From Dacryopinax spathularia (taxonomy: Eukaryota > Basidiomycota > Dacrymycetes > Dacrymycetales > Dacrymycetaceae), in assembly GCA_037974965.1 (NCBI GenBank), contig JBBPFI010000006.1, forward strand, positions 1,054,001 through 1,118,000: a DNA stretch of 64,000 nucleotides, written 5' to 3'. The notes beneath the pieces were generated by a model. That model did not search any database, was not told the DNA's origin, and worked only from the letters and a program-made list of their open reading frames with translations. Numbering within the stretch: the stretch's first letter is position 1; each line of letters begins with the position of its first letter. This document shows, piece after piece, positions 826-19,615 of this stretch. The position numbers and the translations under genes were made by a program.

Positions 826-915
826 CGGGCATGCAGTACCTCCAGGTTCCGTGCGCTTTTGTACGGAGCCAAATGTACGGCGTCCGTACAGGGCCGTACA
901 CTCCCAATAGCCGGT
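826..915 (+). repeat. Nested palindrome block, left copy
   Basis: Contains TTTTGTACGGAGCC, then TGTACGGCGTCCGTACA (an almost perfect palindrome), then GGGCCGTACA, so an outer GTACGG/CCGTAC pair encloses an inner one. The same arrangement occurs reverse-complemented at 19505-19615. A CATGC word and a TCCAGG word lie on the outer side of both copies. This is what a transposon end with subterminal protein-binding sites could look like. Confidence 0.5.
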
Positions 916-1116: not shown

Positions 1117-3396
1117 ATGCGCTTGACTCAGCTCTACAAACTTCTGAAACGCTTTCGACCAGCTATAGGCGACATTACTGTTGAGCAAGCAATCGAGTTC
1201 GTCTTCGCTGCGCGCAGTCTGCAAAATCGAATCTGCTGGCAACAAGACACTGGTGTAGCCGGATTTGAAGATCCACCAACTGAGCTGCCGATATCCGTGA
1301 TCGGACTTCTTGCCATTGGTCTTAAAGTCAGCCGCGCACAAGCCATCGCTCTCTGGGATATCTTCCGGGATACGGCGTGGGTTGCCGACAGGGACTTCAC
1401 TACCCTATGCCCGCCGCTTGTTCACCATCATCGCATCTTTGCAGAGCACGGACAGTCTTTCGATCTCGGTTAGCCTCATGCCTTCGGAGCTCGTTCTTTC
1501 TGCTCACTGTGCCCAGCTGTTGAGGAGTTCTATCCGCCCACTCGCGTCTGCACGTACTCCTACTGTCCCGAATTCGTCAACCATCACCGACAGGCTCGTT
1601 TATACGATCCACGCAGGTACAGGGCCACTCTTTACACCGTTTCCCAAGGCGCACTCCCGGTGATCATAACCTCGCTCCGGTGCCCCTCCTGTCCCTGCAC
1701 CTACCACATGAACTACGCCTGTCAACCTGACGCGTCCGGCAATATGTATCGAATATACTACCCTGGCGTACCCCAAGTAATTCAAGGGGAAAAACACTTT
1801 CTGTTTGAAGACAAACTTTGCGAGCTATTCCGATCTATGACCGTCTTTTCCCAGTACGTTCATCATCTCTGCATCGCGCTCTCCTTCTGTCTCCCTCTCC
1901 TTCTGTCTCACTCTCCCCTTCTATCTCAATACCTCCTCCTGTATCTCTTTCTCCTTCTGTATCTCTCCCTCCTTCTGTATCGCTCCTGTTCTGCTTGCTC
2001 ACACTCTGTGCAGTTCGTCGATGAGCGCAAATGCTCTCGTATATAATAGTACTCTCGGCACACCCCGATACCCTGAAAAAGGCGCTTACAAACCTCCTCT
2101 CCTGCGCGCAGAGTATATCGCAGACCTGTTCGATTTATACGCCCTACTATTACATCATAACGAGCAAGGCAGCCGCCTTCGGCTTCCGCACCTCCCCGGA
2201 CTCACACAAACGGAGCGACTCACGAGGGCAATGCTTGAGCGAAATATATTCATTGCCGAGAAAGGGCAGGAGCAATGGCCGCATGCTTGCGACATCTGCA
2301 GGAAATTTTTTGAACGCGACGGACGCCAGTGTAAGCCAGTCTTCCATTCCCTGTGCTTTAGCTCAATTTCGTCTACCAGATATGTTATCCTGCGCCATTA
2401 CCGATGGTGTGGCTATAGGAAGGCCATGTTGTGCTCAACACAACTGCGCCAATCCTCTCATCACCAATCGTGCCCGTCATTGCCTGATGCACGCTCATCT
2501 GGAAGTGGCTTGCGCTGTTGAAGGTTGTTCGGCACGGGCACGAGACGGATATCAAACATGCTCGATCCGCAGCCATGCCGCTCTTGAATCCAAGTTCCGG
2601 TCCGAGAAGGAGTCCTTCCAGTTACTTAAGAGACGCCTTAACCGGACTCATGCCTACTTCCGAGGTGCAAATCCGCCTTTACATGACGAGCTCGCTGGCG
2701 ATATGGACATAGAAGGAGAGATAGAAGGCGGTGAAACTTCTCTTGGTAGCCGGCTGCCTTCCCAATCCTCTTCTCAGCCCCACAGAAAATTGCGTGCGCG
2801 GTTCACTCGCCGAAGGACGCATAATGAGCAACTGGTGGTACGGCCGTGCGGCATTATCCTGGCTCGAGGTACATTCTACGGAGCTGAGTCGCTGGCATCT
2901 GTAGCTGTTTGTACCTCCCTCCCTCTTCTTGCCCCATTGACTTACTCTTCTTTAGGATTTTCTGTGCACCGTCTTTCCTTCAGCTGCATCCCTCCCTGAC
3001 GTGTTATTCTATGACAATAACTGTCAGCTTCACAAATACATTCACGAACGGCCCCTGCTGAAGGAGTACTTCAAGGACACTGCGCTCGTTGTTGATATCT
3101 TCCATTTCAAGTCGAAGCACTCTGAAAAGGACTGGTACTGCGGCCTGCACTGCAATGCGGCTGCGTATCCCGAATTAGTCGACGAGGAGAATCAAGTATG
3201 GACGTTTAACTCCTCGAAATGCGAACAAATCAACGCATGGCTCAACAACTTTCATCCCATCGTCCGGGAGATGACGCCGGTTCGTTACGAGTTCTTTTTG
3301 GATGAGGTTATCAAGGTCCACAATCGCTTTCTCGTCAGCGAGCTGGCTAAGCGCGGACAGTCCCCACATCTCATTCCCTCTGCAGCTTTGATCTAG
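1117..3396 (+). CDS. CxC5/CxC6-KDZ transposase-type protein, apparently intact
   Basis: Five exons: 1117-1468, 1517-1853, 2014-2330, 2380-2900 and 2956-3396, giving 655 residues with no internal stop. All introns are GT-AG. Residues 129-176 carry the CxC5-type cluster (CTYSYC, then RCPSCPCTYHMNY). Residues about 340-400 carry CxC6 (PCCAQHNC, CLMHAHLEVACAVEGC, then a TC...H pair). The C-terminus (510-655) matches the end of KDZ transposases, with YDNNCQLHKY at about 528, WYCGLHCNAAAYPEL and FNSSKCEQINAW; the Asp in DNNC is probably part of the RNase H-like catalytic core. KDZ proteins are DNA-transposon enzymes, but CxC5/CxC6 forms are also found without a clear element around them. Intron 2 (160 bp) is unusually long and filled with a CT minisatellite. 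The N-terminus could extend into an unseen upstream exon. Confidence 0.8.
1875..1990 (+). repeat. CT-rich minisatellite inside intron 2 of the KDZ gene
   Basis: Degenerate 15-18 bp units of the type TCTCCTTCTGTATCTC. The same family appears at 1040-1080 just before the gene and as a long array at 12715-13150. It accounts for this intron being three times longer than its neighbours. Confidence 0.7.
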
Positions 3397-3420
3397 TCAC
3401 TTGTTGTACTCGTTTTCCAT

Positions 3421-3600
3421 TTGTACAGCAGACCGGCCAATATCCATACACACATTGAGGTTGTTCTTGTCCGTCTGCTGCGCAAGAGCAGGCCGAACAC
3501 TATCCATACACACATTGAAGTCGGCCTTGTCTATCTGCTGCAAATAAGCAGACCGAACACTATCCATACACGCATTGAAACCGCTCTTAAGACATCCAGG
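3421..3600 (+). repeat. 60-bp minisatellite carrying the GATATCCATACACAC motif
   Basis: Three tandem units of about 60 bp. Each has a GCAGACCGAACA-type start, the ATATCCATACACACATTGA core, and a CTTGTCTATCTGCTG end. A degenerate fourth copy of the core lies near 3713-3735. The same unit, in the opposite orientation, occurs twice at 17608-17760. The array sits between the 3' ends of the KDZ gene and gene A. Confidence 0.85.
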
Positions 3601-3779
3601 CTAGCGTTGCTATCAGAAACGGAGGAGGACGTGAGCTCGGCCCCTTCGCTCGACATACGCCTACATAGCAGTTCACCCGATATTCCATTTCGTCAGTCTA
3701 CTGGGTACAGGCAGGCCGAACAATATCTGTACACATGCCTGACGTGCGTATCTCACACTGCTTCCAGCCCTCTAAAGTC

Positions 3780-6700
3780 TCAAAAGGGAACAGCTTTGTT
3801 TTTGCGAAAGTAAGCACTCTCGGAAAGAACCTTGCTCCCTTTGGCATTGATAAGACCTGTATAGTTCGGCTCCCTGCGCGTCTCTGGAGGGGGAGGACCG
3901 GGGAAATCCAGATTCCCCTCGAACCAGCGTTCACGAATGAGATTGTCGAGGACGTGCAGCGGAATTCCGCGATTTCGCGGCCCTTCGAGGTCGTAATACT
4001 TGTAGGAGACTACGACGGTTAGTGTCTGGGAGATCCAAGCAGAAAAGCACTTACTATTCCCGTAGACGTCGTTATGCCACATGCAGACCGCTTTTTTATC
4101 CCTACATCTGATGCAGCATTGGCGCTCCCAGCGTCTGCAAACTCGGTTTACGCCCACGCGTGCCTCCTTATGTATTTGACAGGTGTGGCAGGCTTTCTCT
4201 CCGTAAGCGAGCTATACCAATGCGTAGTCAGACAGTTTCTAGCCCTGCGGATCGAGCGGCTTACGAAAATTTTGGCTGGAAGACCTGGATCTTCTATGAT
4301 AACTTCCCCTTGAGTTTTGACTTCATCGAAAGTAGGGAAGTTGCTCAGCGAATATACGGGCATTTCAAAGAAAGCGCATCGCAGGACATGGCGAGGGAAA
4401 GGGTCGATCCTGTTCTTCGATCGTCTCATTCGCTTCAGATTGTCGTCCACTGTTTGCCAGCCGTCTGGTTGCTGGTCCAGATGAGCCGCAAGCTGCTTAC
4501 GCCTAGCTTTGGTATGCATGAGATAGCGGCGATCGAATTCCTCAAATGTCATTGGGTTCTGATCTTCTCCTACGAGGTGCGCACGCTTAATGGGACCAGC
4601 CGGCTTCTGACGCCAGCGACCGCCCACGAAGACCTGTAGTCGTTCAAGCGCCCATCTCGGAATGTGCCGATACTCGATCTCCAGTTTGTACCGTTCCTCG
4701 GAGACGACCCAATCGAAGACATTTTGAAGAATAGAGATGATAAGTTCTGCTTGATTTAGGGTGAAAGGGACGCCTTCGGTGTAGTGTACAGCGAGAGTGT
4801 CGGCCTAGATCAGAACGTTAGAGTGCGGCGAGTATTCTTTCCATAAACACATACCACAGTTAGGCGGACATTGGCGAACCACTTGTCAACCCGCTCTTCA
4901 TTGTTATGGAGAGGTGGCTTGGGCTTATTGGTGTCCACAGTGCGTAGCACACCTTCAATGTAGAGTGACGAGTAGCGATCCCAGTTAAATAGCCTATCCG
5001 CCTTCGTTTTCGGTATACGGCGTTCTAATTCATCCCAAGCGAAGTGTCCGCCAGCTGTGGCCCTCCGGGGCAAAGGGTCATCGAACCCTTCCATGACGTG
5101 GAAAGCCAAAAGATGAACTGCTTCATCTTTCACCAGTGCGTACGCTTCTTCCAAGATGGATACCCCGTCGGGTTGAGGGATACGAGGGTCATCCCACATG
5201 TCGAGAAAGCATTGCTATGATGCGCCTTAGCATACATGTTGCTCGCCCGTGGGTTGTCACTCACTAGAAACTCGCCTCGCTTATTAAGAAGCCATTGTAC
5301 CCCCGGTCGCGTAATATCACCATATTCTCCGAACCAAGGAAGAGGGGCGGTCCGATTGCGAGCGATTTCGTCCACGACTTGCTGAGGAGTCTTCAGAGAA
5401 AGAATGAGGGTTTCGGGATCGGCCTGCCAATGCGGGAGGATTCGGGATACTTCCTGCCGCAGCAGCTCTTCCGTTCGATTTTCAATGTAAGGGAGCTTGA
5501 AGTCAGCCGGCCTGACTTGAAGATCGTTGCCATGACCAGGGAGTCCCTCGGCAAGCTGGAAGAGTTTCTCCATTGCATGCTGAAGATAGCGGTAGGCCAG
5601 TCTCCCGCTCGTGAGGTCAAAGCCGGCCATCTTGCTCTAGAATATCATCAGCGCAATACAATGCCGACATTATGTCATACTTACCATGAAGTCAGCGGCC
5701 TTCGTAAACCAGGAACTGATAGCCTCATCCGAGTCACTTTCTTCGGGCACTTCGAGTATGAGAATGTGTAATTCGTTAAGCCGAGAGTAGAGAAGTTCTT
5801 CCAGTTCTTCCTCAGCACTGTTCTGTGGCGTGTGAGTGCCCTTCGCCCAGAATTGCAGAGGAGTGCAATCCAGCAAAGTGTCCCAAGGAATATCCTGGAC
5901 GGGGGAAGGAGCCTCTGAGCCACCAGGGGCGTTTTCTCCCTCCAAGTCGCCTCCTTCATGCGCAGCAGATTGAATAGCATCAGCTTGGCGCTCTGCTTCA
6001 GCCCGACGTTCTGTTTCAGCCCGCCGTTCTGCTTCAGCCTGCCGTTCTGCTTCAGCCTGCCGTTCTGCTTCAGCCCGACGTTCTGCTTCAGCCTGACGTT
6101 CTGCTTCAGCCTGACGTTCTGCTTCGGCTCGGCGTTCTGCTTCAGCCCGCATCGCTTCAGCCTTGCGTTTCTCCTCAGCGAGTCGGGCCTCTTCAGCCTT
6201 CCGTGCCTTAAACGCATCCTGAGCTTCCCGAGCCTTCTGCAGTCGTGCAGCTCTCAGGGCTTCTTCTTCCATGCGGGCTCGGGCTTGACGATCAAGCTCG
6301 GCAGCCTGTCGAGCTGCTTCAGCCTGTCGAGCTGCTTCGGCCTGTCGAGCTGCTTCGGCCTGTCGAGCTGCTTCGGCCTGTCGAGCTGCTTCGGCCTGTC
6401 AAGCTGCTTCGGCCTGTCGAGCTGCTTCGGCCTGTCGAGCTGCTTCGGCCTGTAGAGCTTCTTCCCGTTGTCTAGCTGCGGCCCGACGCTCAGCTTCGGC
6501 CTGACGAGCTTGTTCTTCAGCCTTTTGCCTTTGCCTCCAAGCCTCTTGCGCTCTCAGATGTCTTGCCAGCTTCTCCTCCTCTGACAGTTGCGAATACCGT
6601 ACCGGGTCCGACGCCTCACCCTGCCCCTTGTCTCGCACCCTCGCCTGGTCCTTCCGCGGCGCAGCAGCTCTCCTCTGGCGATCCTGTTCGGCGTGTCCGT

Positions 6701-7007
6701 TGTACCTTGGTTGCTGGTTCGGGGACGGGATTGGGTACATCGGGCGACGAGGCTGGTAAGCGAGCGAATTGTTGGAAGCGGTGTATCCTCGATCACTATT
6801 GCTTGGATTGGTGTATGCGTAGTATTGGTGCTGAGCCAGATGGGGTGAACGGCCGGAAGAGCTCCTATATGCGTCGGTACGCTCGGGGGGAGGCGCATAT
6901 CTGGGGGTAGCGGGCCGTGATATCTGCTGGGCTTCTTGCTGATGCTGTTGCTGGCTGTACCAGCTGCTGGTGTGCCAGTAGTGTAGTCCTCTGTTAGGAT
7001 TGGCCAT
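3780..7007 (-). CDS. Gene A: coiled-coil, cysteine-cluster protein of unknown function (one in-frame stop)
   Basis: Six coding exons (7007-5685, 5636-5265, 5214-4855, 4804-4265, 4211-4055, 4009-3780) join to 994 codons; all five introns are 45-53 bp GT-AG with CTAAC or CTGAC branch points. The N-terminus is Gln/Pro-rich and disordered. Residues about 150-350 form a highly charged coiled coil of AEAARQ and AEAERR repeats. The middle (450-860) is a novel globular region. The C-terminus has a cysteine cluster near 873-910 (ACHTCQIHKE, then ERQCCIRCRDKKAVC), which suggests a zinc-binding unit of basidiomycete type. Within the AEAARQ repeat, codon 203 is TGA (6399-6401) where the repeat has CGA, a C-to-T change at a CpG, so the full product is interrupted unless read through. 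I recognise no named family. Gene B is an inverted, shorter paralogue. Confidence 0.7.
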
Positions 7008-7049
7008 TGTGAAAACTTCGATATGTCGAAGGAGGAAGACTGCATACAT

Positions 7050-7262
7050 GCTCAGTACACGCGGTCGGAGGCGGCAGGCACAAACACTGAACGTACGTAC
7101 CTATGAGAGGTAGAAGGCTGAACTTCTCCTCGTTCACCTCGGCTTCCTTTCACCCGCACTATCACTGTTCCTCCTAACTTGGCTAGCAGAACAGTTGGGT
7201 GAACAGCTGCGAATAAACGAGGACAGGATGGGATGGGCTTTGGGTTGAGTTGCGGATGTACG
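7050..7262 (-). promoter_or_regulatory. Conserved upstream region and 5'-leader intron of gene A
   Basis: On the minus strand this reads CCCATCCCATCC, AACTATTCTGCTAGC-like, AAGTTAGGAGG, GAGGTGAACGAGGAGAAGTT, then CTCATAG followed by GTACGT. The same words in the same order occur upstream of gene B (10318-10545). CATAG/GTACGT looks like the donor of a leader intron ending at a TGCAG just before the ATG at 7007. The likeness shows the two genes were duplicated together with their promoters. Confidence 0.65.
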
Positions 7263-7667
7263 TTGGGAGGTAATGTGAGTTGCAAGGATATTGGCAGTGG
7301 AAGTATGTGGCTGAGAAAGCCTATGAATAAAGGTAAAGTTTGGGTATTAATGTGCGGATATGGATGATGTTCTGACACAGTCTAATCTCTATGGCGGTCT
7401 TGTCATTAGAGTACACCACGCCTGATTCTGACATTGGCTTGATCTACAACGCCACTGCATCCCCGTAACAACGCCACCCAGTGACTGTCACATGCATCTC
7501 TGACGCCTTCGTCAGCACCGCTCTGCGGAGCCAAATACCCCCTGTCATTCAAACTCATCCACCTCCTCCTCATCATCCTACGACCATCTTCCTCAGAAAC
7601 CTATCCAGTATCTCGTGAAGCTCATTGAAGAATTGCAGCATCCGTGAGTGGGAGGACTAGCTCAAGT
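7263..7667. other. Divergent intergenic spacer between genes A and E
   Basis: About 400 bp. It holds no gene that I can see and should contain the start region of gene E. Several ATG codons lie here, but no frame resembles a protein. Confidence 0.4.
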
Positions 7668-9341
7668 ATGCGAGCTTACTTCTCGACCAGTTGTGAAGCA
7701 ACCACCGCACTTCAGTCTTATCTATCAAGATACGACTGCAGTATGGACGCCCCGTATCGCCGCCCCTTCTCTGTTATGAATACTCTGTCTGCGGAGAGAG
7801 ACAGTCTGATCGATACCGATACACGCTCGACCATCGACGTCGACTTCCGTGAGAGGCTCGGAACTGCGCCATCCGTCCTCGCTTCTTCTGCAGGAGAAGC
7901 CAAGCCGAACGATATCCATACACGCATTGCCACTCCTGTTGCGAGGGTTGAAGGCGCCGGAACTGCGCCATCCATCCTCGGTTCTTCTGCAGGACCGGCC
8001 AAGCCGAACGATATCCATACACACCTTGCCACTCCTGCTGGGGGCGTCCTCGCTTCTTCTGCGGGAGAAGACAAGCCGAACAATATCCATACACACATTG
8101 CCACTCCTGCTGGGGGGTTGGAGGGCGCCGGAACTGCGCCATCCATCCTCGGTTCTTCTGCAGGACCGGCCAAGCCGAACGATATCCATACACACCTTGC
8201 CACTCCTGCTGAGGGCGTCCTCGCTTCTTCTGCGGGAGAAGACAAGCCGAACAATATCCATACACACATTGCCACTCCTGCTGGGGGGTTGGAGGGCGCC
8301 GGAACTGCGCCATCCATCCTCGGTTCTTCTGCAGGACCGGCCAAGCCGAACGATATCCATACACACCTTGCCACTCCTGCTGGGGGCGTCCTCGCTTCTT
8401 CTGCGGGAGAAGACAAGCCGAACAATATCCATACACACATTGCCACTCCTGCTGGGGGCGTCCTCGCTTCTTCTGCGGGAGAAGACAAGCCGAACAATAT
8501 CCATACACACATTGCCACTCCTGCTGGGGGGTTGGAAGGCGCCGGAACTGCGCCGTCTATCCTCGGTTCTTCTGCAGGACAGGCCAAGCCGAACGACATC
8601 CATACACTCGCACACGACCCTGTGCCAGGATGCGAAGACACTCGTTCCGCGCCCCGCCATGCTCTGCCTAGCTCTGCAAGGACCGCAGTTGTCACCAAAG
8701 GGTCTTCGCGCCGAGCACGTGGTTACTCTCGCAATCCCAATCTCGCAATCACCCAACGCCGGCTTGATGCATATGCTGATTACCTACGTGCGTTTCACTG
8801 TGACTCTCTACCCCTGCAGGTTGCTGTGCAAGGGCGTCTTGCAGAGGTCGCTGCCTTGCGTCGTGCGGTGGATGAGCAGGACGCAGAAGAAAGAGGGATG
8901 AATGCGGTTGGCACCACGCAAGCGGACCAGACCGGCTATGATGCAGCCAATGCCAGCGTCGGCGGCCCTGACGAGGCTTGCGAATTGGACGCCTATCCTC
9001 CCCCGTACATGCGAATGGACCCTTTTCGTGAGCAGACTATCCGTAGTCTGCTCTACCCTGATGGGGAACTCGATTTGTGCGCCGCTGGAGCCGCACATGC
9101 ACTTACAAAGACGAAGACTCCTCCCTCCGTACAGCCGAACGCTTTGGACTCGCGTCCTTGGATATATAACGATGAAGTATATAGGAGCAGCGCGGCCTTG
9201 GACGCGTACCGGAAGGCTCGAGCGGAAGATCGCAGGCGCTACCGTGAAGAGCGTGGGTTGACGACAATCTATGCTCGCTTCTGCGACTTCTTGCCCAAGT
9301 TCCTCAATCCATGCGCCTCTTCAACCGGCATCCCTGTGTAG
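7668..9341 (+). CDS. Gene E: NDIHTH tandem-repeat protein of unknown function
   Basis: Single-exon frame of 557 residues; the ATG at 7668 is the first in frame, though an upstream GTG keeps the frame open to 7644. Residues about 60-315 are a tandem array of two alternating units, a ~33-residue one (EGAGTAPSILGSSAGPAKPN then DIHTHLATP) and a ~24-residue one (VLASSAGEDKPNNIHTH). There are nine repeats in all, each carrying the translation of the region's 22-bp DNA motif (PNDIHTH). The remainder has an alpha-helical segment (LAEVAALRRAVDEQDAEE) and a C-terminal stretch with LDAYRKARAEDRRRYREER. No domain is recognised. The repeat lengths are multiples of three, so other frames also stay open across it. 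It may be a real protein whose repeats grew from the DNA motif, or a non-coding repeat that is open by chance. Confidence 0.5.
   Translation: MRAYFSTSCEATTALQSYLSRYDCSMDAPYRRPFSVMNTLSAERDSLIDTDTRSTIDVDFRERLGTAPSVLASSAGEAKPNDIHTRIATPVARVEGAGTAPSILGSSAGPAKPNDIHTHLATPAGGVLASSAGEDKPNNIHTHIATPAGGLEGAGTAPSILGSSAGPAKPNDIHTHLATPAEGVLASSAGEDKPNNIHTHIATPAGGLEGAGTAPSILGSSAGPAKPNDIHTHLATPAGGVLASSAGEDKPNNIHTHIATPAGGVLASSAGEDKPNNIHTHIATPAGGLEGAGTAPSILGSSAGQAKPNDIHTLAHDPVPGCEDTRSAPRHALPSSARTAVVTKGSSRRARGYSRNPNLAITQRRLDAYADYLRAFHCDSLPLQVAVQGRLAEVAALRRAVDEQDAEERGMNAVGTTQADQTGYDAANASVGGPDEACELDAYPPPYMRMDPFREQTIRSLLYPDGELDLCAAGAAHALTKTKTPPSVQPNALDSRPWIYNDEVYRSSAALDAYRKARAEDRRRYREERGLTTIYARFCDFLPKFLNPCASSTGIPV
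7855..8610 (+). repeat. Tandem array of 99-bp and 72-bp units, nine motif copies
   Basis: Order of units: 99 (diverged), 99, 72, 99, 72, 99, 72, 72, 99 (diverged). Central copies are almost identical, so the array expanded or was homogenised recently. Each unit holds one AAGCCGAACRATATCCATAC core. Confidence 0.9.
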
Positions 9342-10317
9342 TTACTTAGTCGGAGTTCGTAGGTAGCATCTCGGAATGTTTGTATTCACGCACTGTCCTT
9401 GTCTCTGGCTGCGTAGTATGGTGATGTAGATCCATACTACCTCTGTATTCAGCCGTTATCGGCTATCCGATCGCTATAATGCATTCATTGCTTGTACCGC
9501 TGTTCTGTGGTTTTCACAGCAGATTCTTCTGTGATTGGAGTTCTTCTGTGATTTGAGAGTCGGTGGATTCATGAGAAAGGTCTGAGGTTCTTGCGCGCTG
9601 GTGTTGATGCCTTGCACCACCGAGAAGTGCCAAGGCCCACCCTAATAATCCGGTGTGTAAGTGTTCCTATGTTCAGTTCAGTCTTCATTCTAGCCATGAA
9701 AGTGCGGTCAAGACTGGTAGGCACCCACCTTTCGATCTGACCGTCATTCGATTCCACAGCCGTCCGATCTTGGCGCCGTCCGATATGAGCGCCTTCTGAT
9801 TTGAGAGCCATCCGATCTGTGAGCCATCAATAACCAGAACCGTTTCCAACCGGCGCCGTCGGAAGTGAGAGGCATAAGATATGGGAGCCACAAGAAACGG
9901 TCGACAGAATAAACGGTAGTCATTGGAAACAGTAGCCGGCAGATATGGATACTATTTTAAATCAGCCACAATAGTAATCGTCACCTCAGCCATTAGATCG
10001 CAAACAAGAACGACCACGCTTATTTATAAAGGAGTATTGCGCTCGCTATACGCCTGCATTATGATGGGAAGATACGCGCGGTGTCACGTGCTGATTACGT
10101 GTTGCATGTTTATCCCTAGGGTGACGCGCCACACGTTGCATCTGATCTGTCGTTATCTCCTCTTCGTCCAGCGAAACCCATTGCAGCACTGTAGCTCAAG
10201 GTCTCATAATCCCAGCTCCAGTAATCTCACTGGTGTGAGCCAACAGCGCGAGGTTTGCTATCACTGAGCCTCCCTCCATATACACCGCAATTCCACCAAT
10301 CCTTTGTGTCCAAGACT
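9342..10317. repeat. Gene-free spacer with a degenerate 17-bp minisatellite (about 9690-9890)
   Basis: From about 9690 to 9890 the minus strand repeats units like GGATGGCTCTCAAATCA, GGACGGCGCCAAGATC and GGAAGGCGCTCATATC at 16-20 bp spacing. The same family, on the plus strand, forms the array at 14630-14790. The rest of the spacer has no recognisable gene; the part after 9950 is AT-richer than its surroundings. Confidence 0.55.
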
Positions 10318-10545
10318 TACATCGGCAATTCAACCCGAAGCCCATCCCATCCCGTCCTCGTTTACTCGCGGCCACGATTCCAACTATTCTGCTAGCAAGT
10401 TAGGGAAGGAGCCGCGATAGTGCGGGGAAAGGGAGCCCGAGGTGAACGAGGAGAAGTTCAGTCTTCTACCTCTCATAGGTGCGTACGTTAAGTGTTTGTG
10501 CCTGCCGCCTCCGCGTGTACTGAGCATATACCAAGCATTCGCTGC
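10318..10545 (+). promoter_or_regulatory. Conserved upstream region and leader intron of gene B
   Basis: Inverted counterpart of 7050-7262: CCCATCCCATCCCGTCCTCG, AACTATTCTGCTAGCAAGTT, GAGGTGAACGAGGAGAAGTT, CTACCTCTCATAG, then the donor-like GTGCGTACGTTAAG. The likeness ends near the CTGAGCATA branch region, just before the start codon. Confidence 0.65.
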
Positions 10546-10573
10546 CCTCGTCCGTTCACTCACATTCCATACG

Positions 10574-11320
10574 ATGCCATTCGACGACGAGGACCTCACA
10601 GACGGCGGCTGCGGATACCTGTCCGCATCCTCCGCGGAAGACTCCCCAATGCATTCTCCCGCGCACTCCCACTCCCGTCAGCGAGGTTCGCGTCATCGAT
10701 TCAGAAGGAGTGCCCCGCCTCAGCTCCGTCCTTCACGAATCGACTTAACAAAGCAGTCAAGGCCGCTGCAATCTGGGGGTTGGTGTCCACCAGAATACCT
10801 CCTCAAACGGGCTCCGCGAAAACTGCCCTACCAAACGAATCCATCAATAGGAGGCGGCACTTCACAGGCACTTGTAGGACTTCGTGGTGGGGAACCGACA
10901 ATGTCAACAATCTTATGTCTAGACGATCCTTCAGTATGTCAGCCGATCCCAGGAGACAGCACACTAGGAGACCCTGCAGGGGAGGTCAGGTCTATAGCAT
11001 TGGAAGATACGCGCTCTACTGAAGACCATCAATGCCACGAGATGGCTCGCCGGGCTGAAGAAGCTCGTCAGGCTGAAGAAGCTCGCCAGGCCGAAGAAGC
11101 TCGCCAGGCTGAAGAAGCTCGCCAGGCTGAAGAAGCTCGCCAGGCTGAAGAAGCCCGCCAGGCTGTAGCTGCTTGCAAGATCCGCTTAGCGCCTCCCTTG
11201 GGGAAGCATCGTAAACTGAGGAGAGCACGCATGCTGGACAGGGCGAAGGAGGCGTACGAACCTGCGGTGCACCAAGCATATCTCGCGCTCGCCTTCCGCA
11301 GGTCGGACAAGTCGAGCTGA
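10574..11320 (+). CDS. Gene B: shortened inverted paralogue of gene A
   Basis: Frame of 248 residues from ATG 10574 (MPFDDEDLTDGG). It has a Ser/Arg/Pro-rich disordered N-terminus and, near the C-terminus, seven or so AEEARQ repeats like the AEAARQ coil of gene A. The upstream region matches gene A almost word for word. The large middle part of gene A is missing; after 11320 another frame resumes homology (see 11345-11600), so the gene is either truncated or joined by an intron I could not place. Function unknown. Confidence 0.5.
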   Translation: MPFDDEDLTDGGCGYLSASSAEDSPMHSPAHSHSRQRGSRHRFRRSAPPQLRPSRIDLTKQSRPLQSGGWCPPEYLLKRAPRKLPYQTNPSIGGGTSQALVGLRGGEPTMSTILCLDDPSVCQPIPGDSTLGDPAGEVRSIALEDTRSTEDHQCHEMARRAEEARQAEEARQAEEARQAEEARQAEEARQAEEARQAVAACKIRLAPPLGKHRKLRRARMLDRAKEAYEPAVHQAYLALAFRRSDKSS

Positions 11321-11344
11321 CGATGATCAAGAGAGAGACTTGCG

Positions 11345-11600
11345 CGCCGGACGCCTTTACTCTCCTCTGTACATAACAAGAATGCTACGCCTTGTCAATA
11401 ACGTCGAGTCGCCTCTCCACGATCACGAAGGGGGTGTTGACAAGTGGCTCGCCAATGTCCGCTTAGCCGTTGTACGTCTCCATGGAAAGCGTACTCGCCG
11501 CACTCTAACGTACTGACCTAGTCCGATACTCTCGCTGTACACTACACCGAAGGCGACCCTTTCACCCTAATCCAAGCAGATCTCATCATCACAGTTATCA
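11345..11600 (+). pseudogene. Remnant of the gene A central region downstream of gene B
   Basis: Reads LYSPLYITRMLRLVN, then ESPLHDHEGGVDKWLANVRL, matching gene A residues ...PPLHNNEERVDKWFANVRL. The 50-bp intron seen in gene A is conserved here (GTACGTCTCC to TGACCTAG, about 11474-11521), and after it comes SDTLAVHYTEGDPFTLIQAD against ADTLAVHYTEGVPFTLNQAE. Homology stops near 11600. So the B locus once had a full-length copy and lost its middle and end. Confidence 0.6.
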
Positions 11601-11639
11601 ATATCGACTGCGAACTGAACATCCCGTATGAGCACATGC

Positions 11640-11790
11640 CGACGTGCACGAGTGAACAACTACAGCCCTGCAAGGCCCACTCACCCAAAGCGAAGGGGCT
11701 TGCTCCAAAGACTGGGACCCTACTCGGGTCGAATGCAAACCAGCTGTTAGGTGTGAAAGGCTTCGGGCAAGCACACAACACCCTCATGGC
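11640..11790 (+). pseudogene. Fragment similar to part of gene C
   Basis: The words CTCGGGTCGAATGCAAACC and AGCTGTTAGGTGTGAAAGGC resemble 15636-15685 in gene C (GGGTCGAGAGCAAGCC, AGCTGTTAGGAGTGAGCGGC). Similarity covers only about 60-80 bp and is imperfect. It suggests that pieces of gene C-like sequence were pasted behind gene B. Confidence 0.4.
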
Positions 11791-11887
11791 TTTGTGTCCG
11801 CCATTCTCTTCCCGTGCGCTTTCTTTCAAGTGCCCGTATCTATCATGGTTGACACTAGTGCTGTAGTCCGCATCGCTCGCTGTACAG

Positions 11888-12240
11888 GCAAGCCAGACGA
11901 TATCCATACACAACCTGTATGCGCGCGAACTCGCGTTAAAGTGCTCGATAGGCGCTTGGGTCGCTTCCCCTTCCACACTACACCACCCAGCAGGCAGACA
12001 GGCCGAACAATATCCATACACACATTCGCGTCGCGCATCCCTACATCCCTGTATTCGACACCCAGACGCATCCTGTATGCGCACGAACTGGTCCTAAAGT
12101 CCTCGGCATGTGCTTGGCTCGCTTCGCCTCCCACAGCACACCACCCTGCAGGCAGACTGACCGAACAATATCCATACACACATTCGCCGCGCGCATACCT
12201 GCATCCCTGAGCGACCTGGTCGAACGATATCCATACACAC
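11888..12240 (+). repeat. 160-bp tandem duplication with four 22-bp motif copies
   Basis: Two units of about 160 bp (starting near 11917 and 12076) share CCTGTATGCGCRCGAACT, a CGCTTC..CACCACCC stretch, GCAGRCAGRC, and the core ACCGAACAATATCCATACAC. Further copies of the core lie at 11893-11912 and 12214-12240. No protein-like frame is conserved between the units. Confidence 0.8.
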
Positions 12241-12714
12241 GGATAGGGTAAGGGCTCGGCTCTCTTCCAACTCGCGCGGCGTGGACTTACTCTCCGTCAA
12301 TTAAGTATGCCTACCTCGTCCAATCCTCTACCTTTGTCCTCCTTCTGCTTTCCTGACGCTATCGGAGTTCACTTGCTTGTTTCTCATTTTACCCGGGGTG
12401 TAAGGCACTAACGCGTCTGTAGTCAGTCTGGTCTCATCCCTACAGTATCGCTGTCATCTGTAGCTGTTACTGCCCCGCTCGTTCTGTACGTGCTTCTGTT
12501 TCTGAGACTCTCTTCATCGCCGCTGATATCTTGTCGTTTGCATCCCTGCAGACCCTTGCTCTCTCGCGCGTTGGCTATTCCTTTTTATTCGCTTCTTCAC
12601 CCAAGCTGTGTGGGCCGGTATCCCTTTCCAGCTCAGCAATTCTCTCACATCCACAACCTTACTTCTCGTCAATCCCTATTTATCCTACCGCATCGCTCGC
12701 CTCTTCATCTCTCC
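12241..12714. other. Gene-free spacer
   Basis: Pyrimidine-rich, with no recognised gene, repeat or motif copy. Open frames that cross it are continued from the neighbouring minisatellite and carry no domain. Confidence 0.4.
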
Positions 12715-13150
12715 TCCTTGACCTCTCTCTCCTTCTTCATCTCTCACTCCTTCTTCATCTCTCTCTCCTTCATCTCACTCTCCTTCTCCATCTCTCGCTC
12801 CTTCATCTCTCTCCACTTTTTCATCACTCTCTCCTTCTGCATCTCTCGCTCCTTCTGCATCTCTCGCTCCTTCTCCATCTCTCGCTCCTTCTTCATCTCA
12901 CTCTCCTTCTCCATCTCTCGCTCCTTCATCTCTCTCCACTTTTTCATCACTCTCTCCTTCTGCATCTCTCGCTCCTTCTGCATCTCTCGCTCCTTCTGCA
13001 TCTCTCGCTCCTTCTTCATCTCTCTCTTCTTCTTCATTACTCTCTCCTTCTGCATCTCTCGCTCCTTGTGCGTCTCTCCTCTTCTCCCTCTCTCTCTTCT
13101 TCTTCATCACACTCTCCTTCTGCGTCTCTCGCTCCTTCATATTCTCTTGC
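12715..13150 (+). repeat. 18-bp CT minisatellite, about 24 units
   Basis: Units of the type CATCTCTCGCTCCTTCTG, with variants CTTCTT, CTCCAT and CTTCAT. One ~120-bp higher-order block (about 12780-12900) is repeated almost exactly at about 12900-13020. On the minus strand it would read KEREMQ/KEREME. Gene C really encodes a short KEREMRKERD stretch of the same kind at about 16497-16545, so the array may descend from, or feed, coding sequence. Confidence 0.85.
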
Positions 13151-13514
13151 TCCTACTTTCTATCTCTCCTTCTATCTATCTCTCCCCTTCTTCGTCTCGT
13201 ATCTGTCTCCTTTTTCATCTGTCGATACTTCTTCCTCACACTTACCTTCATCATTTCACCTTCATCATATCGCCCTCCTTCGTTCTGTCCTTTGTCTCTC
13301 ACCTTCTCATATCACCCTCATCGCGCATCCTACCGCATATGTGCCGTCGACAGTCGTGAGGTATGTGTGTTACTAGGCTGGCTTGACTACATACTGAAAT
13401 GTCTATATAGAGTCCCTCATGATCTCTCCAAGATGGAAGAGTTCACTCCATTGCAAGCTTGGGCAAGTCGAGGAGAAGCACATTCAGTCGCGCTCTCAAT
13501 AGGACCGTGAATGA
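13151..13514. other. Gene-free spacer
   Basis: Continues the pyrimidine-rich character to about 13330, then ordinary sequence. No protein or RNA gene recognised. Confidence 0.35.
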
Positions 13515-13640
13515 GATCGCCGAACGATATCCATGCACACGTCCAGGCCGAACCATATCCATACACACATCTAGGCCGAACCATATCCATACACACGTCC
13601 TGAACAGGCCGACCGATATCCACACACACAACTTGTCTGT
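13515..13640 (+). repeat. Four tandem copies of the 22-bp motif, about 30-bp period
   Basis: CCGAACGATATCCATGCACA, CCGAACCATATCCATACACA (twice) and CCGACCGATATCCACACACA follow one another with short GTCCAGG or TCTAGG spacers. This is the densest plain array of the motif, with no coding frame needed to explain it. Confidence 0.9.
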
Positions 13641-13817
13641 CTGCTCACTTATACGCATTCTAGAACTGCCACGACTAACGCTCAACACAGCAAGCTTCTA
13701 CGCCTACTGGATGTCAACTACATGTAGGCAGGTCTTTTGGATGCCACCAAAATCCCTGAGAGCAGGAAGACTTCATTCGACTGCATGCTTCGCTTCAATT
13801 ACTGCCAATGAGCCATG

Positions 13818-14485
13818 CAACCCGAGCGATATCCATACTCACAGTGCGCTCGTCTTGCATTCTTGCATGCGTGCTGGTTCCAACTGAGCAACCCTCTGGC
13901 AATGTGTAGCAAAAGCGAGCCATCAAGTGGAGCGGCGAAGCACAGCTTGGCCAGAGGAGCGCCTAGCGATATCCATACACATATCTCCTCATGTGGAACA
14001 AGCCTATCGAAATACCTGCACAGTACGTCTTGTTCACTTCTGTATTGGGCTAGTGCGGCTATAGCTAACTGCACACCGCAAGTCTTTATATACCACCGGA
14101 TGTCAGCTTGAAATCAGATCATGCATTTCTCGCAAGCCGGACAGGCTGATCGATGCCCATACCCATAGTGAGTGCGCTCTCGGTGTTTGTGCGGCTCACT
14201 ATAATTAATTGCACATTGCCAGCTCGGTCGAACGTACGATCTTGGACGCGTCCCATGCGTTCCAAAGACGACCCCAAGCCAAGCCAAGCCAAGCGACATC
14301 CATACACACCGTGCGGTCCTCTCGCAGCCTCGATGCGAGCGCTCGCAACGACCTGGTACAGACTCAGGGTTGAATGTTCGTCCTGGCTACTTGATCTTGG
14401 CGATTAATAATTTGAGCTGCAGGCCGAGCTCAAATTATGAAGGCACGTTCGGAGAAGAACTCAGGCCGAACAGCTATACACATTC
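13818..14485 (+). repeat. Scattered single copies of the 22-bp motif
   Basis: Cores lie near 13821 (GAGCGATATCCATACTCACA), 13966 (TAGCGATATCCATACACA) and 14293 (AAGCGACATCCATACACACC), with decayed copies near 14148 and 14462. Each is followed by unique DNA, and the spacing is irregular. No gene is recognised between them; the whole stretch 13641-15034 appears non-coding. Confidence 0.75.
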
Positions 14486-14629
14486 TCCGCCAATTTATAT
14501 CTAGTTCATTTGTGCGGCTACATCTCTTAATAAAATGTGCTGATGTGCTCTTCTAAACGAACTTCGGGACGCCTGACACAGAATCAGGTTGCAGGTACCC
14601 AGATCAGTCGGTTCTAGTCTCGAATGGGG

Positions 14630-14790
14630 ATCGTTTGAATGGACCTCGTTTCGGATGACGCTTACTTCGGATGGCGCCAGTTTCGGATGGCGCCAGTTTC
14701 GAATGGCGCCAGTATCTATGGGCGCCAGATTATACTGGCGCCCATATCTGATGGCGCTACTTTCTTATGGCGCCAGTTTCTGGTGGTCCT
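14630..14790 (+). repeat. 17-bp GGATGGCGCCAGTTTC minisatellite
   Basis: Eight or nine degenerate units with GGCGCC at the centre of most. Because GGCGCC is its own reverse complement, neighbouring units can pair (for example GGCGCCAG...CTGGCGCC near 14713-14735). It belongs to the same family as the degenerate array at 9690-9890, which lies in the opposite orientation. Confidence 0.8.
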
Positions 14791-15034
14791 CACAAGGGGC
14801 GGCGCTCGTATCGAAAGGCTCGTATTTCGTGTTGGAATCTTATAATAAAATAATGTGTGTCCCATGCGTTGCACATCCATTGTAGCATGGATTAATGATG
14901 TCGGTGCGCATCAACAAGGAACCTAAAATCCCTTGATGGTTTGGTCGTCGCTTTTTTCCTACGCGGGTAGACGTACTTGCTCTCTCATTATTTCCACTAT
15001 TACTTTAACTTTGAATTGTCTCCCAAGCTACAAC

Positions 15035-17091
15035 ATGTCCGCCTTCACACCGGATGTGAAGCCCGAGCTTGACAGCTACAGTTACCCAAGGGATGTGACT
15101 ATCATGATGGACCTCTGGGGATTGAGCGAAATTGCGCCACATAACTGTGAGGCATGCGGCGCCTTGTGCATACCCTTTGTTGCATACAATCGGAAGGGCA
15201 AGTACCCCCTTAATAAATACAGGATATTTGTCCGCGTGAGTAGGAAATCATGCTCATGTATGTGCCTATCTGACATGGTTAACAGTGTGCGGACATCGGG
15301 CACTTCGATAACAGTTTCACTTGGATCTCCAACCCCGTTCCATCCTCTTACCTTGCACACGTACAGGGTGCGCTGGCCGGCCATCCCCTCTATGACTACC
15401 CATCCAGTCCACCTCGTGGCAGTCCAGAGAAACCCTTCTACACCGACTCGTATAGTGCAAGGCCATCGCAGCTTCCCCGGAAGGTCAAGAATACTTGCAA
15501 GAACGGCTGCACGAAACCGCTGAACGCCGACTGCCCGAAGCTGTACTGCCGAACGTGTTGCTTGATCGCTCAGGAGAACGCGGAAGACGGAGAGCGCTAT
15601 GAATGTTCGAAGCACAAGCTTTCCCGCTCACCCTGGGTCGAGAGCAAGCCAGCTGTTAGGAGTGAGCGGCTTCAAGCAGGAACTCCTGCTGGTATCGACG
15701 TCATAGTGTTGGACGCAGATGACAACGCCCAACCAACGTCGACTCAGCAGCGTCGTACGCCCCACCGGCGAATGGAATCTCCAACTCCGACCAGATTGCC
15801 TCGCGCTTTCCAAGGCCCAGCTACACCGCGGCAGGCCCGTCCATTGGGACGTCTTGTACCCGAGAGCTATGATCTCGAGAGAGAGAGAGGAAGGGATGAG
15901 AAAGCACGCATTGAGCTACAGGAGAAAGAAGCGAGAGAAAGAGAAGAGGAGAGAGGGAGACAGTTTACCGTGGTCATCTTGACAGAGGTGTGTAACGTCC
16001 CATGTTCTCAGTACAACAAGCATACTGACCTAAGTATACAATGGCAGGACGATGCCCTGTCTTTCCCAGGCGTACGTGCTAAAGCGGGCTTGAGTGGCCT
16101 CACAACGCGCGTGAAGGAATGGGACGCCCATATTCACGAATGGATTCGAGGCAGGCTTGGGAAGCCTTATGGGTCACTCGAGCTCTTCAATCCGGAGTCA
16201 AATCGCTGGGAAGTCTATGGCCTCGATGCCCTGCGTAATGTCAAAAGAGACGAGAGACTGCTATGTCGCCTGCCAGGGGTGCAAGTCGATCTTCCGCATG
16301 TCCAGGAGGAGATGCTACGTCTCGCGTATGCTACCCCCTTGCGAGACGCTCATCGCAGGTCTGCTGCGTCACCGAAGAAGGCGACTACGCGACCTAAGCT
16401 CATCGCCCAAGATATCGATTCCACACGAAGCATCAGCCCTGGCACTACCAAAGGGGCCCCGAGCCCAAAAGGGACCTCCTTAGATGGAGTGGTGTTGAAG
16501 GAGAGAGAGATGAGGAAGGAGCGTGATGTGATGAAGGAGCGAGAGATCATCATGATATCATCGGATGATGATGATCCCCCGAATCGAAAGCGCTCGCGAT
16601 CCACTGGGACAGATGACTCCCTTCCATCTTTCGGCGAGATAATACGCAAGCCGAGCACCCCCTCGACCTCCGCTTCTGCAGCCGAGCGCAACCCCCGGAA
16701 TGGTCCTTCAGCGAGTACACCAACAGAAGATGGAGCTATCATCCGTGGGGCCTGGCCTGGCAACGCATCCTTCGGCGTCGTCCATCATCAGATTAGCGAG
16801 ATCACGCAAAAAATGAATGAAGAACGGAAGTCGTTAGAAGTTGCTCTGGCTAAAGTGGTTGGTCATCGTGTTCCTCGCCAAACGTGGTACGATCAAGTCC
16901 ACGTTCTTCAAGAAGCTAGCAGCAGCCTTCTCGACAGCTTCAAGAAAACGCCTGCGAAAAGCTGGTCGTCGTTCCGGATCAAGGTCGGCGAAGAGAAGGA
17001 TGCTCGTCAGCCGGGAGTGATGAAGATGAATGGCAAGAAAGATAACCCGAGATCAAGCGAAAAGCGCCGCCCCAAGAAGATCAAGAAGTGA
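15035..17091 (+). CDS. Gene C: GRF-like zinc-finger and cysteine-rich protein
   Basis: Three exons (15035-15235, 15286-15987, 16048-17091), 648 residues; the introns are 50 and 60 bp, the second in phase and without stops. Residues about 35-85 (NCEACGALCIPFVAY, NKYRIF, then RCADIGHFDNSFTWI across intron 1) follow the CxxC...C...F.W plan of a GRF-type zinc finger, a single-strand nucleic-acid binder in other proteins. A second cluster follows near 130-165 (CKNGCTKPLNADCPKLYCRT, CCLIAQ, CSKH). Next come an Arg/Glu-rich helix, a conserved ~90-residue globular stretch (WDAHIHEWIRGRLG, NRWEVYGLDAL, ERLLCRLPGVQ), an acidic/Ser tract, and a basic tail (EKRRPKKIKK) that may be a nuclear signal. The exact function is unknown; nucleic-acid binding is inferred. 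Confidence 0.7.
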
Positions 17092-17400
17092 TGGTTATAT
17101 CAAGACGTCATGTTTATACCTTCGTCGACATGGTCATCAGCACTCTTAAGCTAATCACCTTTTATCACCTATGCGATTTCTCTGTGTTTTGATTTGGCAA
17201 GATGCCCGCGCGCGTTACCATTGTTTACCTGCGCACACCGCCTCGTTAGGTGTCAGTCCCACGTTCCTTTTCATGTTTCTCACTTGACCTCATCCTTCAC
17301 CCCGTTATATATGTTATCCCTAACTAAAGTCTTTAATAATCATTATTTTCCTCTGTATATTGCGCCAGGCACAATGACGGCGCGATAGGAGTCCACTCGG
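17092..17400. other. 3' spacer of gene C
   Basis: About 300 bp, AT-richer than average. No gene or motif copy recognised. Confidence 0.4.
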
Positions 17401-17500
17401 AGCCGCGTCGTGTGTATGGATAACGCTCGGCGTGTCCGACGTGTATGTATGGATATCGTTCGGCCTAGAGGTGTGGATGGATATCGGTCGGCTTGCTTAG
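17401..17500 (-). repeat. Three 22-bp motif copies in reverse orientation
   Basis: Reads on the plus strand GTGTGTATGGATAACGCTCG, GTATGTATGGATATCGTTCG and GTGTGGATGGATATCGGTCG within 90 bp. Orientation is opposite to all clusters left of 14.5 kb. Confidence 0.85.
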
Positions 17501-17607
17501 CCGTACCCATAGCGAGAAACGCAAGTCCCTACTAAATGTTAATGGACCGAAAGTGACAATAGGAATTGTTGTTGGACCGGTCGCAGCACTATGACAGCAT
17601 TATCCTG

Positions 17608-17760
17608 TGCAGCAGACGGACAAGGGCAGGCGACTTCGATGTGTGTATGGATATTGTCCGGTCTGCTTCTGGGCAGCAGACGGACAAGGACGAGTTCGGT
17701 CCCCACGGCGAGATCGATATGAACGTGTGTATGGATATCGAACGGCGTGCTCACTCGGTC
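17608..17760 (-). repeat. Inverted counterpart of the 60-bp minisatellite at 3421-3600
   Basis: Two units, each with GCAGCAGACGGACAAGG, then GTGTGTATGGATATTGTCCG or GTGTGTATGGATATCGAACG; the first also has the GGTCTGCTTCTG end. The reverse complement of 3421-3600 reads almost the same (GCAGCAGACGGACAAGAACA). The two arrays lie in opposite orientation about 14 kb apart, each downstream of a minus-strand gene. Confidence 0.85.
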
Positions 17761-17901
17761 AAGCAGTCAAATGAGGACAGCTATGAGGATTCGCGAATCG
17801 ATCGGCAGTTTCTCAAGTCAAGAACACAAGAATCTATTGACGTGCGGGGATCTCGGATATACAGTGACAGGGGAATGCTATTGCGCGTAGGAACGAGTAC
17901 C

Positions 17902-19052
17902 TTATTCGATCTTCTTCTGAATCCACCCAGGCGCTGCCTTCAAGATGCCAATCGCCAGCTTGACAGCATCCACATGGTAGACCTTGAGAAGGACGACATA
18001 GAAAACTAGGATATTATATGTCAGCAAGTAGCTCGACTAGTGAAAACAAAATGACTTACTTATCGCAACGAGGATGATGCGGCGGAAGTCCCAGAGGGCC
18101 CGAAGGAGAGTGTCGAAGATGCAATAGATCACCTTACCGAGCCAGTAGACATGGCCGCCCAAGTCATAGCAAAAGAGGCGAGGGTGACAGCCGTGCTCGC
18201 GAATCCTCTTGACGGCTCCAACCACGTACGGCCAGTTACGAGACGTCCTCAACCAAACTTCCGCTGCGTCATCCCAGCCAGCTCGAGCAATGGCCGCAAG
18301 GTTGTCGTACACAGCGTCGACGTCAGCTGCACCGCGGCGAGCGCCTGCGTCACGCTCTGCAGCAACGGCCTCATCGTACTCGCGTGCCGTCAGGTCGAAG
18401 ATGCGGCGTCTGCGGGGACCTTCACTGAGGGGGCCGCCCTGCGCGAGTGTCAGCACCAGACTTCGACAGGCAAGCCGAACGATATCCATACACACATGGA
18501 TATCGATCGTTGAGGACGTACCTGTCCTTCTTCCATCTCGCGAGGCGTGGCCCTGCTGTCCGCCAGCCCGGCGTGCTCATCCCTCACAACACCATCCGCC
18601 CCCTGTGTCCGCCCCCTTTCCACCTTCTCGTCTGCACCATCCGGGCCTGCCTCAGCTTTGATCATTGGCCCGCCGGCCATCGCTCCCAGCTCGTTCGCGC
18701 CAAGGGTCGCGAACAGGACTCCATCGCCGAGCCAACCCTTCAGGCGCCGTTCGGCGTAATCGGCGGGCTTGTAGAAGTCGGAAAGCTCGCGAACGGTCGA
18801 GCTGGTCGATACGGCAAGGGAAGGCGAGGCGGTAGGGATTGCTGGGGCGGTACGACTGCCCTCGGCGAGCTGTTCGAGCGGAATGGCGACAACTTCCCTC
18901 GCTTTACCTTTCTCCTCCTTCTTCTTTGCCTCCAAACCGGGGTTCGCCGGCTCACGTTGTGTTGCTTGCTCGGATGTATCGTCGTTTTTCTTGCTTGCCA
19001 GAGTCTTCTTATGGAGCCAGCTCTCGGATACCATGGCGTACAAGTGATCCAT
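17902..19052 (-). CDS. Gene D: uncharacterised protein with C-terminal membrane segments
   Basis: Exons 19052-18522, 18438-18060 and 18005-17902, 337 residues. The N-terminal half is charged and low-complexity (KKKEEKGKAREV). The central part has VRELSDFYKPADYAERRLKG, a short conserved-looking segment. After intron 1 comes a helical domain (EYDEAVAAERDAGARRG, WDDAAEVWLRTSRNWPYVVG) and then a hydrophobic end (WLGKVIYCIFDTLLRALWDF, RRIILVAIIFYVVLLKVYHV) that can make one or two membrane helices. Intron 1 (18439-18521) contains a 22-bp motif copy forming a perfect hairpin. The frame also opens upstream to 19175, but the ATG at 19052 fits better. No family recognised; it may be a mitochondrial or ER membrane protein. 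Confidence 0.65.
18474..18511 (-). repeat. 22-bp motif forming a 10-bp perfect hairpin in gene D intron 1
   Basis: In transcript sense CGATATCCAT, a 6-base GTGTGT loop, then ATGGATATCG, with the motif tail TTCGGC beyond. The arms are perfectly complementary. It sits between the donor and the branch region of an otherwise normal 83-bp intron. Confidence 0.85.
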
Positions 19053-19269
19053 GGTGGTCGAGGTGAGAGATGAGCGATGCGATGCGACTGAGTGGCACGG
19101 GAATAGGGACCAAGATGATCTTGGAATTTCGGTGAGTGCAACCCCTATCGAGTATCTGCGGCGAAATTGACTCACAATTCCGTCGCAGGGCAGATGTACG
19201 TCTTCTATTGTGTGCGAGAGAATCTGCTATCCAGTGAGTGATGTAGTCATTGAATGAAACGATTCACTC

Positions 19270-19296
19270 ACTGTGTGTATGGATATCGTTCGTCCC
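19270..19296 (-). repeat. Rightmost copy of the 22-bp motif
   Basis: GTGTGTATGGATATCGTTCG on the plus strand, about 220 bp upstream of the gene D start. No further copy is visible to the right, through base 64000. Confidence 0.9.
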
Positions 19297-19504: not shown

Positions 19505-19615
19505 ATCTACCGGCTATACGAATCGGCTATACGGATGGAGTACGGAGCTGTACGGATCCGTACATATCAGCTCCCGTACAAAACCTCACGTTCCCTGGAT
19601 GGCCTCCGGGCATGC
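19505..19615 (-). repeat. Nested palindrome block, right copy
   Basis: On the minus strand: TTTTGTACGGGAGCTG, then TGTACGGATCCGTACA (a perfect 16-bp palindrome), then CAGCTCCGTAC and TATAGCCG words. The outer GTACGG(G)AGCTG/CAGCTCCGTAC arms also pair. It is the reverse-oriented partner of 826-915. Confidence 0.55.

Follow-up and report, generated by a model that had tools for sequence, protein, structure and literature searches.

The question raised by this locus is why a motif of about 20 bp should recur some thirty times within 16 kb of a basidiomycete chromosome. The window analysed here is a stretch of 64,000 nucleotides from the edible jelly fungus Dacryopinax spathularia (assembly GCA_037974965.1, contig JBBPFI010000006.1, positions 1,054,001 to 1,118,000, forward strand). 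Its motif-bearing part, at 3.4-19.3 kb, is the interior of a single KDZ-type DNA transposon of 18,773 bp, which occupies window positions 834-19606. From the comparisons presented below, we consider it probable that some protein of this element recognises the motif. A more specific proposal—family-specific sites serving an element-encoded binder, likeliest the product of a cysteine-cluster gene termed F, with an anti-silencing effect—has, in our estimation, an about even chance of being correct.

A motif confined to the copies of one transposon

Searching the window with the 20-mer CCGAACRATATCCATACACA at up to three mismatches returned 31 matches, as compared with none across 100 dinucleotide-preserving shuffles, and the 15-mer core gave 32 matches against a shuffle mean of 0.92. 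An earlier note, made from the letters alone, had counted about 33 copies in one 16-kb stretch and none in the other ~44 kb. The clustering is real, with a count of 31-32 at the thresholds used, and the rest of the window is indeed empty: the sole core match beyond 3.4-19.3 kb (position 27315, three mismatches) is at chance level, and no motif occurs at up to four mismatches in the 44 kb outside the element. The positions given in that note also agree, except that 13.8-14.5 kb holds three sites at threshold where five had been claimed. Twenty-two of the 32 sites lie outside an open frame termed gene E, some of them on the opposite strand, and ten inside it; some of the arrays are tandem, and the information content drops outside the site. 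The sites are placed as follows.

3433..3736, + strand: sites 3433, 3493 and 3553 (60-bp tandem) and 3716, located 3' of the transposase gene
7905-8609, + strand: nine copies in gene E, in frame, with a further degenerate copy at 7806
11893..12240, + strand: sites 11893, 12003, 12161 and 12220
13520..13629, + strand: array of sites 13520, 13548, 13576 and 13609, upstream of F
13822..14309, + strand: isolated sites 13822, 13962 and 14289, upstream of F
17410..17745, - strand: sites 17410, 17443, 17471, 17641 and 17725, downstream of F
18475..18495, + strand: single site in a likely intron of gene G, next to an inverted partial site (both by eye)
19273..19293, - strand: single site, the closest to the right end

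A BLAST comparison of the region with the other motif-bearing places identified four copies of the element in the genome. Besides the window copy (E1), these are C14 101,561-120,146 (99% identical), C15 64,805-83,109 (91-99% identical, depending on the segment) and a diverged copy at C14 478,978-497,572, designated E1d (~67-81% in matched segments). All four are flanked by 8-bp target duplications, each different from the others (CGGGCATG, GCCCCTTG, GTGGAGAG and CCGCCCGC). Genome-wide, the core has 104 matches at up to one mismatch, compared with none for the reversed pattern; 103 of them fall inside the four copies (27, 25, 24 and 27), and the remaining one, at C9:120877, could be produced by chance (~2.5 expected by simple arithmetic). 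The matches are neither evenly spread nor restricted to a single locus; they cluster in this KDZ element, in its four copies only, and the motif belongs to the element. With 103 of the 104 matches inside it, a host regulatory motif was rejected. The insertion site suggested in the earlier note is not supported: it was the whole element that was inserted, and the target duplications are unlike the motif.

The other features of the element are listed below.

826..833, no strand: 8-bp target site duplication CGGGCATG, left
834..903, + strand: left terminus, an imperfect inverted repeat containing GTACGG twice and CCGTAC twice
1117..3396, + strand: transposase gene, with CxC5 (2.8e-27) and CxC6 (3.9e-21); last intron uncertain
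3780..7009, - strand: gene B, several exons with approximate limits, encoding glutamate/alanine-rich repeats
7629..9341, + strand: gene E, given as a stop-to-stop open frame, with the motif in 72/99-bp tandem repeats
10574..11320, + strand: gene D
15035..17091, + strand: gene F, encoding a cysteine-cluster protein and candidate motif binder; weak DUF702 match (E 0.002, below cut-off)
18037..19226, - strand: gene G, approximate exons
19537..19606, - strand: right terminus, a near mirror of the left
19607..19614, no strand: 8-bp target site duplication CGGGCATG, right

The CxC5 and CxC6 modules of the transposase score far above the Pfam cut-off, and the KDZ domain reaches 25.9 bits in the last exon (E 9.7e-6) and 21.7 bits in the spliced model (E 1.8e-4), against a cut-off of 26.6. 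These three are the only Pfam matches of the transposase, with the MuDR (MULE) transposase not matched, and its closest database relatives are Calocera proteins (51-58% identical). The terminal inverted repeats are imperfect and about 66 bp long; their GTACGG repeats, which sit at nearly mirrored positions in both E1 and E1d, differ from the internal motif and are perhaps the transposase's own binding sites. Viewed against the C14 copy, the window also contains inverted duplications (4736-4930 v 11396-11590, ~83%; 7045-7263 v 10315-10530, ~85%), which suggest that part of gene B, together with its upstream region, was copied to give gene D.

Family-specific motifs in other KDZ elements

A search with the last exon of the transposase placed 28 KDZ loci in the genome, and a gene F match lies within 20 kb of 25 of them. 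Sixteen of these loci were examined for motifs, in eight groups including that of the window; elements E2 to E8 were read as letters in parts, with the remainder covered through pattern matches. A dispersed motif of its own was found in seven of the eight groups and at 15 of the 16 loci. The E2 element (C17, L053) has a similar yet distinct motif, CCGAACGATATCAATACCAACAC, and 25 of the 28 genomic matches to its core lie in its two copies. For E3, 21 of 23 genomic matches are in E3 itself, and all ten E4 matches are in the two E4 copies. A degenerate E5 pattern gave 34 matches, all of them in elements (14 in E5, 18 in two E6 copies and two in E4), and E5 and E6 carry consistent variants of the motif. 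The more distant family E8 bears an unrelated 23-bp near-palindrome, CAAGTACCGAGCACGGTGRCTTG, derived from tandem repeats in L055, and all 41 of its genomic matches lie between the F and transposase matches of three E8 copies. Three of the family motifs were guessed from two copies each in the gap between F and the transposase and then searched genome-wide; these turned out to extend over 5 to 15 kb of their element.

When the motifs were cross-matched at up to four mismatches in the pieces in hand, the only overlaps were those of E1 with E2 and those within the set E3 to E6. Written in one direction and aligned by eye, those of E1 (GCAGGCCGAACGATATCCATACACACA), E2 (CCGAACGATATCAATACCAACAC), E5 (GGCGTCGCTTGCGAATCCCCCACA) and E6 (GGCGTCGTCTGCGAATCCCCCACA) resemble one another, and they look like descendants of one site; by the same criterion, the motifs of E1 to E6 look related and that of E8 does not. 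An unbiased 15-mer discovery yielded 3 to 8 clusters in eight element stretches, compared with at most three separated clusters in 11 of 12 control stretches; the twelfth control, L042, gave five and seems to hold a local duplication. In this analysis, E2, E8 and one of the two E1 stretches were no higher than the controls, and the top word in E2 and E7 was another repeat.

The 28 loci, the mapped ones measuring up to 19 kb, suggest that DNA transposons make up more than the 0.12% of the assembly given in the accessible text of the genome paper (PMC11066560), and KDZ elements may be largely unannotated. Several side observations arose from the same survey. Two E2-type motif matches at C2:525490-527663, with no KDZ match listed nearby, could mark a remnant element. 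On the minus strand of L055, frames at 4119-5318 and 7166-8260 of the E8 element may be extra cargo; we take an HxD pattern there to be reminiscent of 2-oxoglutarate dioxygenases and other parts to be like a mitochondrial insertase, without Pfam support. A Pfam scan of genes B, D and E and of the E8 frames returned no convincing family, and a Spore_GerQ match in the repetitive E3 gene E, which was above cut-off with no stretch passing alone, was taken as an artefact. CT-rich (or GA-rich) 18-bp arrays occur in several KDZ elements (window 12708-13198, L034 7544-8093, L053 9032-9309, L054 about 7377-7560). Additionally, 16-bp tandem units lie near F (window 14648-14781, L053 8007-8070, L052 about 127-255), with GCGCC in the window and L053 cases—possibly a second shared repeat.

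Conservation of the sites and their candidate binder

The comparison of E1 with E1d bears on whether the sites are maintained. The number of synonymous substitutions per synonymous site (dS) between the two ranges from 0.27 to 1.01 in the exons compared, mostly 0.5-1.0, and at a dS of 0.85 neutral DNA is expected to be roughly half identical. Seven interval alignments were made, some of which are alternative pairings at inversion breakpoints that share sites. In six of them, identity was higher at motif bases than elsewhere: upstream of F (0.76 v 0.54), in the D-F interval (0.58 v 0.41), downstream of F in two pairings (0.80 v 0.45 and 0.57 v 0.24), at the right end (0.92 v 0.82) and downstream of the transposase (0.69 v 0.46). 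Moreover, in 13 pairings of 12 sites, chosen for having a site in both copies, 15-20 of the 21 motif bases are kept, compared with 12-53 of 80 flanking bases.

The two copies also differ in concert. At position 4 of CGANCG (CGANCGATATCC), E1 carries A in 23 of 33 cases and T in three, and in E1d 34 of 38 sites carry T while none carries A, counts that are non-independent because of the tandem copies. The same A/T pairing of E1 with E1d is found at five scattered sites (19273, 18475, 3716, 11893 and 12003), and site 12161, whose E1d partner is also that of 12003, has A in E1. A base change common to scattered sites would be expected if a binding protein had shifted in specificity; alternatively, the difference could stem from gene conversion over very short tracts. 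Together with the family versions of the motif, the copy comparison and the concerted base support the idea in the earlier note that the 22 bp are selected, for instance as a protein-binding site; the interpretation given there is, as a whole, borne out in part.

Gene F is the most likely binder, as its product is a cysteine-cluster protein and the gene is flanked by arrays that point toward it: the nearest upstream sites are on the strand of F and the downstream ones on the opposite strand. Seven upstream and five downstream sites do so in E1, and nine and nine in E1d. Arrays toward F are also present in E2, in E3 (five and two) and in E5 (one and two), the directions in E3 and E5 being taken from a by-eye motif alignment; in E6 they are seen on the upstream side only, at the threshold used. 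The F relatives have in common two cysteine clusters, a central domain and a C-terminal one (by eye), and DUF702 was weakly matched, below cut-off, in two of the five F pieces scanned. Between E1 and E1d, identity is 71% for F, as against 81% for the alignable transposase (511 codons) and 96% for its last exon; in other families, pieces of F share 34-49% identity with the F of the window, compared with 73-81% for the last exon of the transposase. This rate of divergence alone cannot name F, because D and the C-terminus of E diverge more. In E1d and, mapped by matches, in E2 to E6, F and the transposase are adjacent and face each other. Compared with E1d, the window copy has its interior inverted with respect to the ends, an arrangement simply explained by recombination between arrays, because the breakpoint intervals (3410-3589 and 17099-17714) carry oppositely oriented motif arrays.

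Several observations pull the other way. The seventh interval alignment, the other pairing downstream of the transposase, gave 0.48 v 0.51, and none of the interval comparisons is clean, because global alignment can itself align repeats. A stricter test on six sites outside gene E and inside BLAST alignments gave 0.81 v 0.75, which is not significant (p 0.165). Besides the non-independence of the tandem copies at position 4, six further paired sites carry G, C or T in E1, not A. Ten of the 32 E1 sites are within a coding frame. In E7, no convincing motif was found in 9.8 kb (a candidate taken from the sequence itself, with four matches in 10 kb where 0.01 are expected in shuffles, was not counted because one match falls in the F coding sequence). 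The upstream sites of E4 have mixed orientation, and E3 and E5 have an additional upstream cluster pointing away from F. As for F itself, no Pfam domain was above threshold, no relative was present among 7,991 protein-database candidates scored, no match was found in the PDB, and its single-sequence fold was poor (predicted local distance difference test score 42.9) and was not used. The ratio of nonsynonymous to synonymous rates (dN/dS) between E1 and E1d does not single F out either: F has 0.21, the alignable transposase 0.15, gene B 0.15-0.25 (three exon pieces), and the C-terminus of E, D and G 0.25-0.47.

A different role for a bound protein has to be weighed. Transposons such as En/Spm and hAT carry several short subterminal repeats of one motif, bound by an element protein, and the internal sites described here could be an extended form of these repeats, with the transposase or an accessory protein folding the 19-kb element and joining its ends. 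Family-specific sites in a DNA transposon, one of them ~0.3 kb from the right end, are compatible with such a function. The repeats of En/Spm-type elements, however, are near the ends, whereas the sites here are interior; the leftmost is 2.6 kb inside the left end, most are separated from both ends by over 2 kb, and both ends have GTACGG repeats of their own. We regard a folding function as rather unlikely.

Ordinary transcription-factor sites, through which an element regulator—perhaps F, controlling itself—would act without any chromatin counter-defence, are in our judgement unlikely. Such sites would account for the arrays on both sides of F and for the family specificity; however, the interval from which B and E start divergently (about 7.0-7.7 kb) contains none, with many placed downstream of genes or within gene E and one in a likely intron.

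It is also improbable that no protein is involved and that a tandem repeat of gene E was spread and homogenised by unequal crossing-over and gene conversion. Copying does contribute, as the tandem arrays indicate, and in E3 entire 102-bp units resembling the gene E ones are found again away from that gene. Nevertheless, paired sites retain more of their motif bases than of their flanks, the A/T difference reaches scattered sites, and the nearest arrays stay oriented toward F in families whose motifs differ. Simple slippage alone was rejected in view of the scattered conserved sites, as the earlier note had argued.

Finally, selection on the peptide PNDIHTH, with the copies outside gene E as decayed gene pieces, is very improbable: the gene E copies do read in frame as K-P-N-D/N-I-H-T-H in E1, with some inter-copy differences synonymous there, but 22 of the 32 sites lie elsewhere, some on the other strand, and the E3 gene judged homologous to gene E (by eye, in its C-terminal part) encodes YESPTNIN at the E3 motif, on which ground a purely peptide-level repeat was rejected. 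What gene E appears to have in common across families is the DNA site of the family, with a different peptide; array spacings of 204, 78 and 102 in E2, E5 and E6 would fit the same gene, as judged from the spacings.

Recognition by an element-encoded, sequence-specific DNA-binding protein is the reading we favour. Each KDZ family would spread its own version of the motif over much of the element, mostly outside genes, and this version would let the protein recognise its own family. The most likely effect would be to keep the chromatin of the element open against host silencing, in a manner similar to that of VANC.

Relation to known anti-silencing systems

VANC proteins are the anti-silencing proteins of VANDAL (MuDR) transposons in Arabidopsis (Hosaka et al. 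2017, PMC5735166; Sasaki et al. 2023, PMC10398659). As far as the accessible parts of these papers describe them, their targets are short family-specific motifs, tandem and dispersed, largely noncoding and shifting in step between related families, and an accessory gene stands beside the transposase there as it does here. The family-specific, dispersed and concertedly changing sites of the KDZ elements match this description, and on that basis we propose sequence-specific anti-silencing by an element protein. The systems differ in several respects: here, the transposase is of the KDZ type and the host a fungus, the motif is about 21-25 bp long as against 8-9 bp in VANDAL, one array lies inside a coding gene, and binding and demethylation are, in the KDZ case, proposed. 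No VANC-type family was present among the Pfam matches of the F, E, D and B pieces, no direct comparison with VANC having been made.

The element itself resembles known fungal KDZ transposons: its transposase is of the KDZ type and carries CxC zinc modules, its termini are inverted, and its target duplications measure 8 bp. Judging from the accessible text of the sources, duplications of 8 bp are found in Zisupton and Dileera, with 7 bp in Kyakuja (Kojima 2025, PMC12730594), and 8 bp also in Cryptococcus KDZ1 (PMC12810828). Cryptococcus KDZ1-3 are about 9-11 kb long and have CxC1, in contrast to the 18.8 kb and CxC5/CxC6 of the window element. The accessible portions of these two papers make no mention of a dispersed internal motif, and among the titles and abstract openings returned from the openly accessible literature none described motifs of this kind in KDZ elements, subscription papers being outside the scope of the search.

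A link between fungal transposons and the evasion of silencing has been drawn before: in the part available, Kojima 2025 (PMC12730594) argues that TET/JBP-carrying fungal transposons escape methylation. No TET/JBP match was found among the scanned frames of the window element. The genome holds a DNA methyltransferase region, as well as four sub-threshold Tet_JBP matches (C8:499943, C8:761543, C8:998044 and C13:1016521), two with identical scores, possibly carried by other transposons.

Taken one step further, the data could reflect a self/non-self code among fungal KDZ elements, in which a family signature would be read by a co-evolving zinc-cluster protein of the element that protects or activates only its own family; we offer this extension tentatively, as less likely than not. 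In the literature search, and within the accessible text of the papers found, VANDAL was the only detailed case of sequence-specific anti-silencing by a transposon protein. If the proposal is true, the same counter-defence arose independently in plants and in fungi, in transposon superfamilies unrelated to each other, and a second, independent case in a fungus would suggest that transposons repeatedly evade host defence by tagging their own DNA. The D. spathularia genome, with at least seven parallel family-specific motifs and an F relative nearby, would be a ready test set for the joint change of binding specificity and target.

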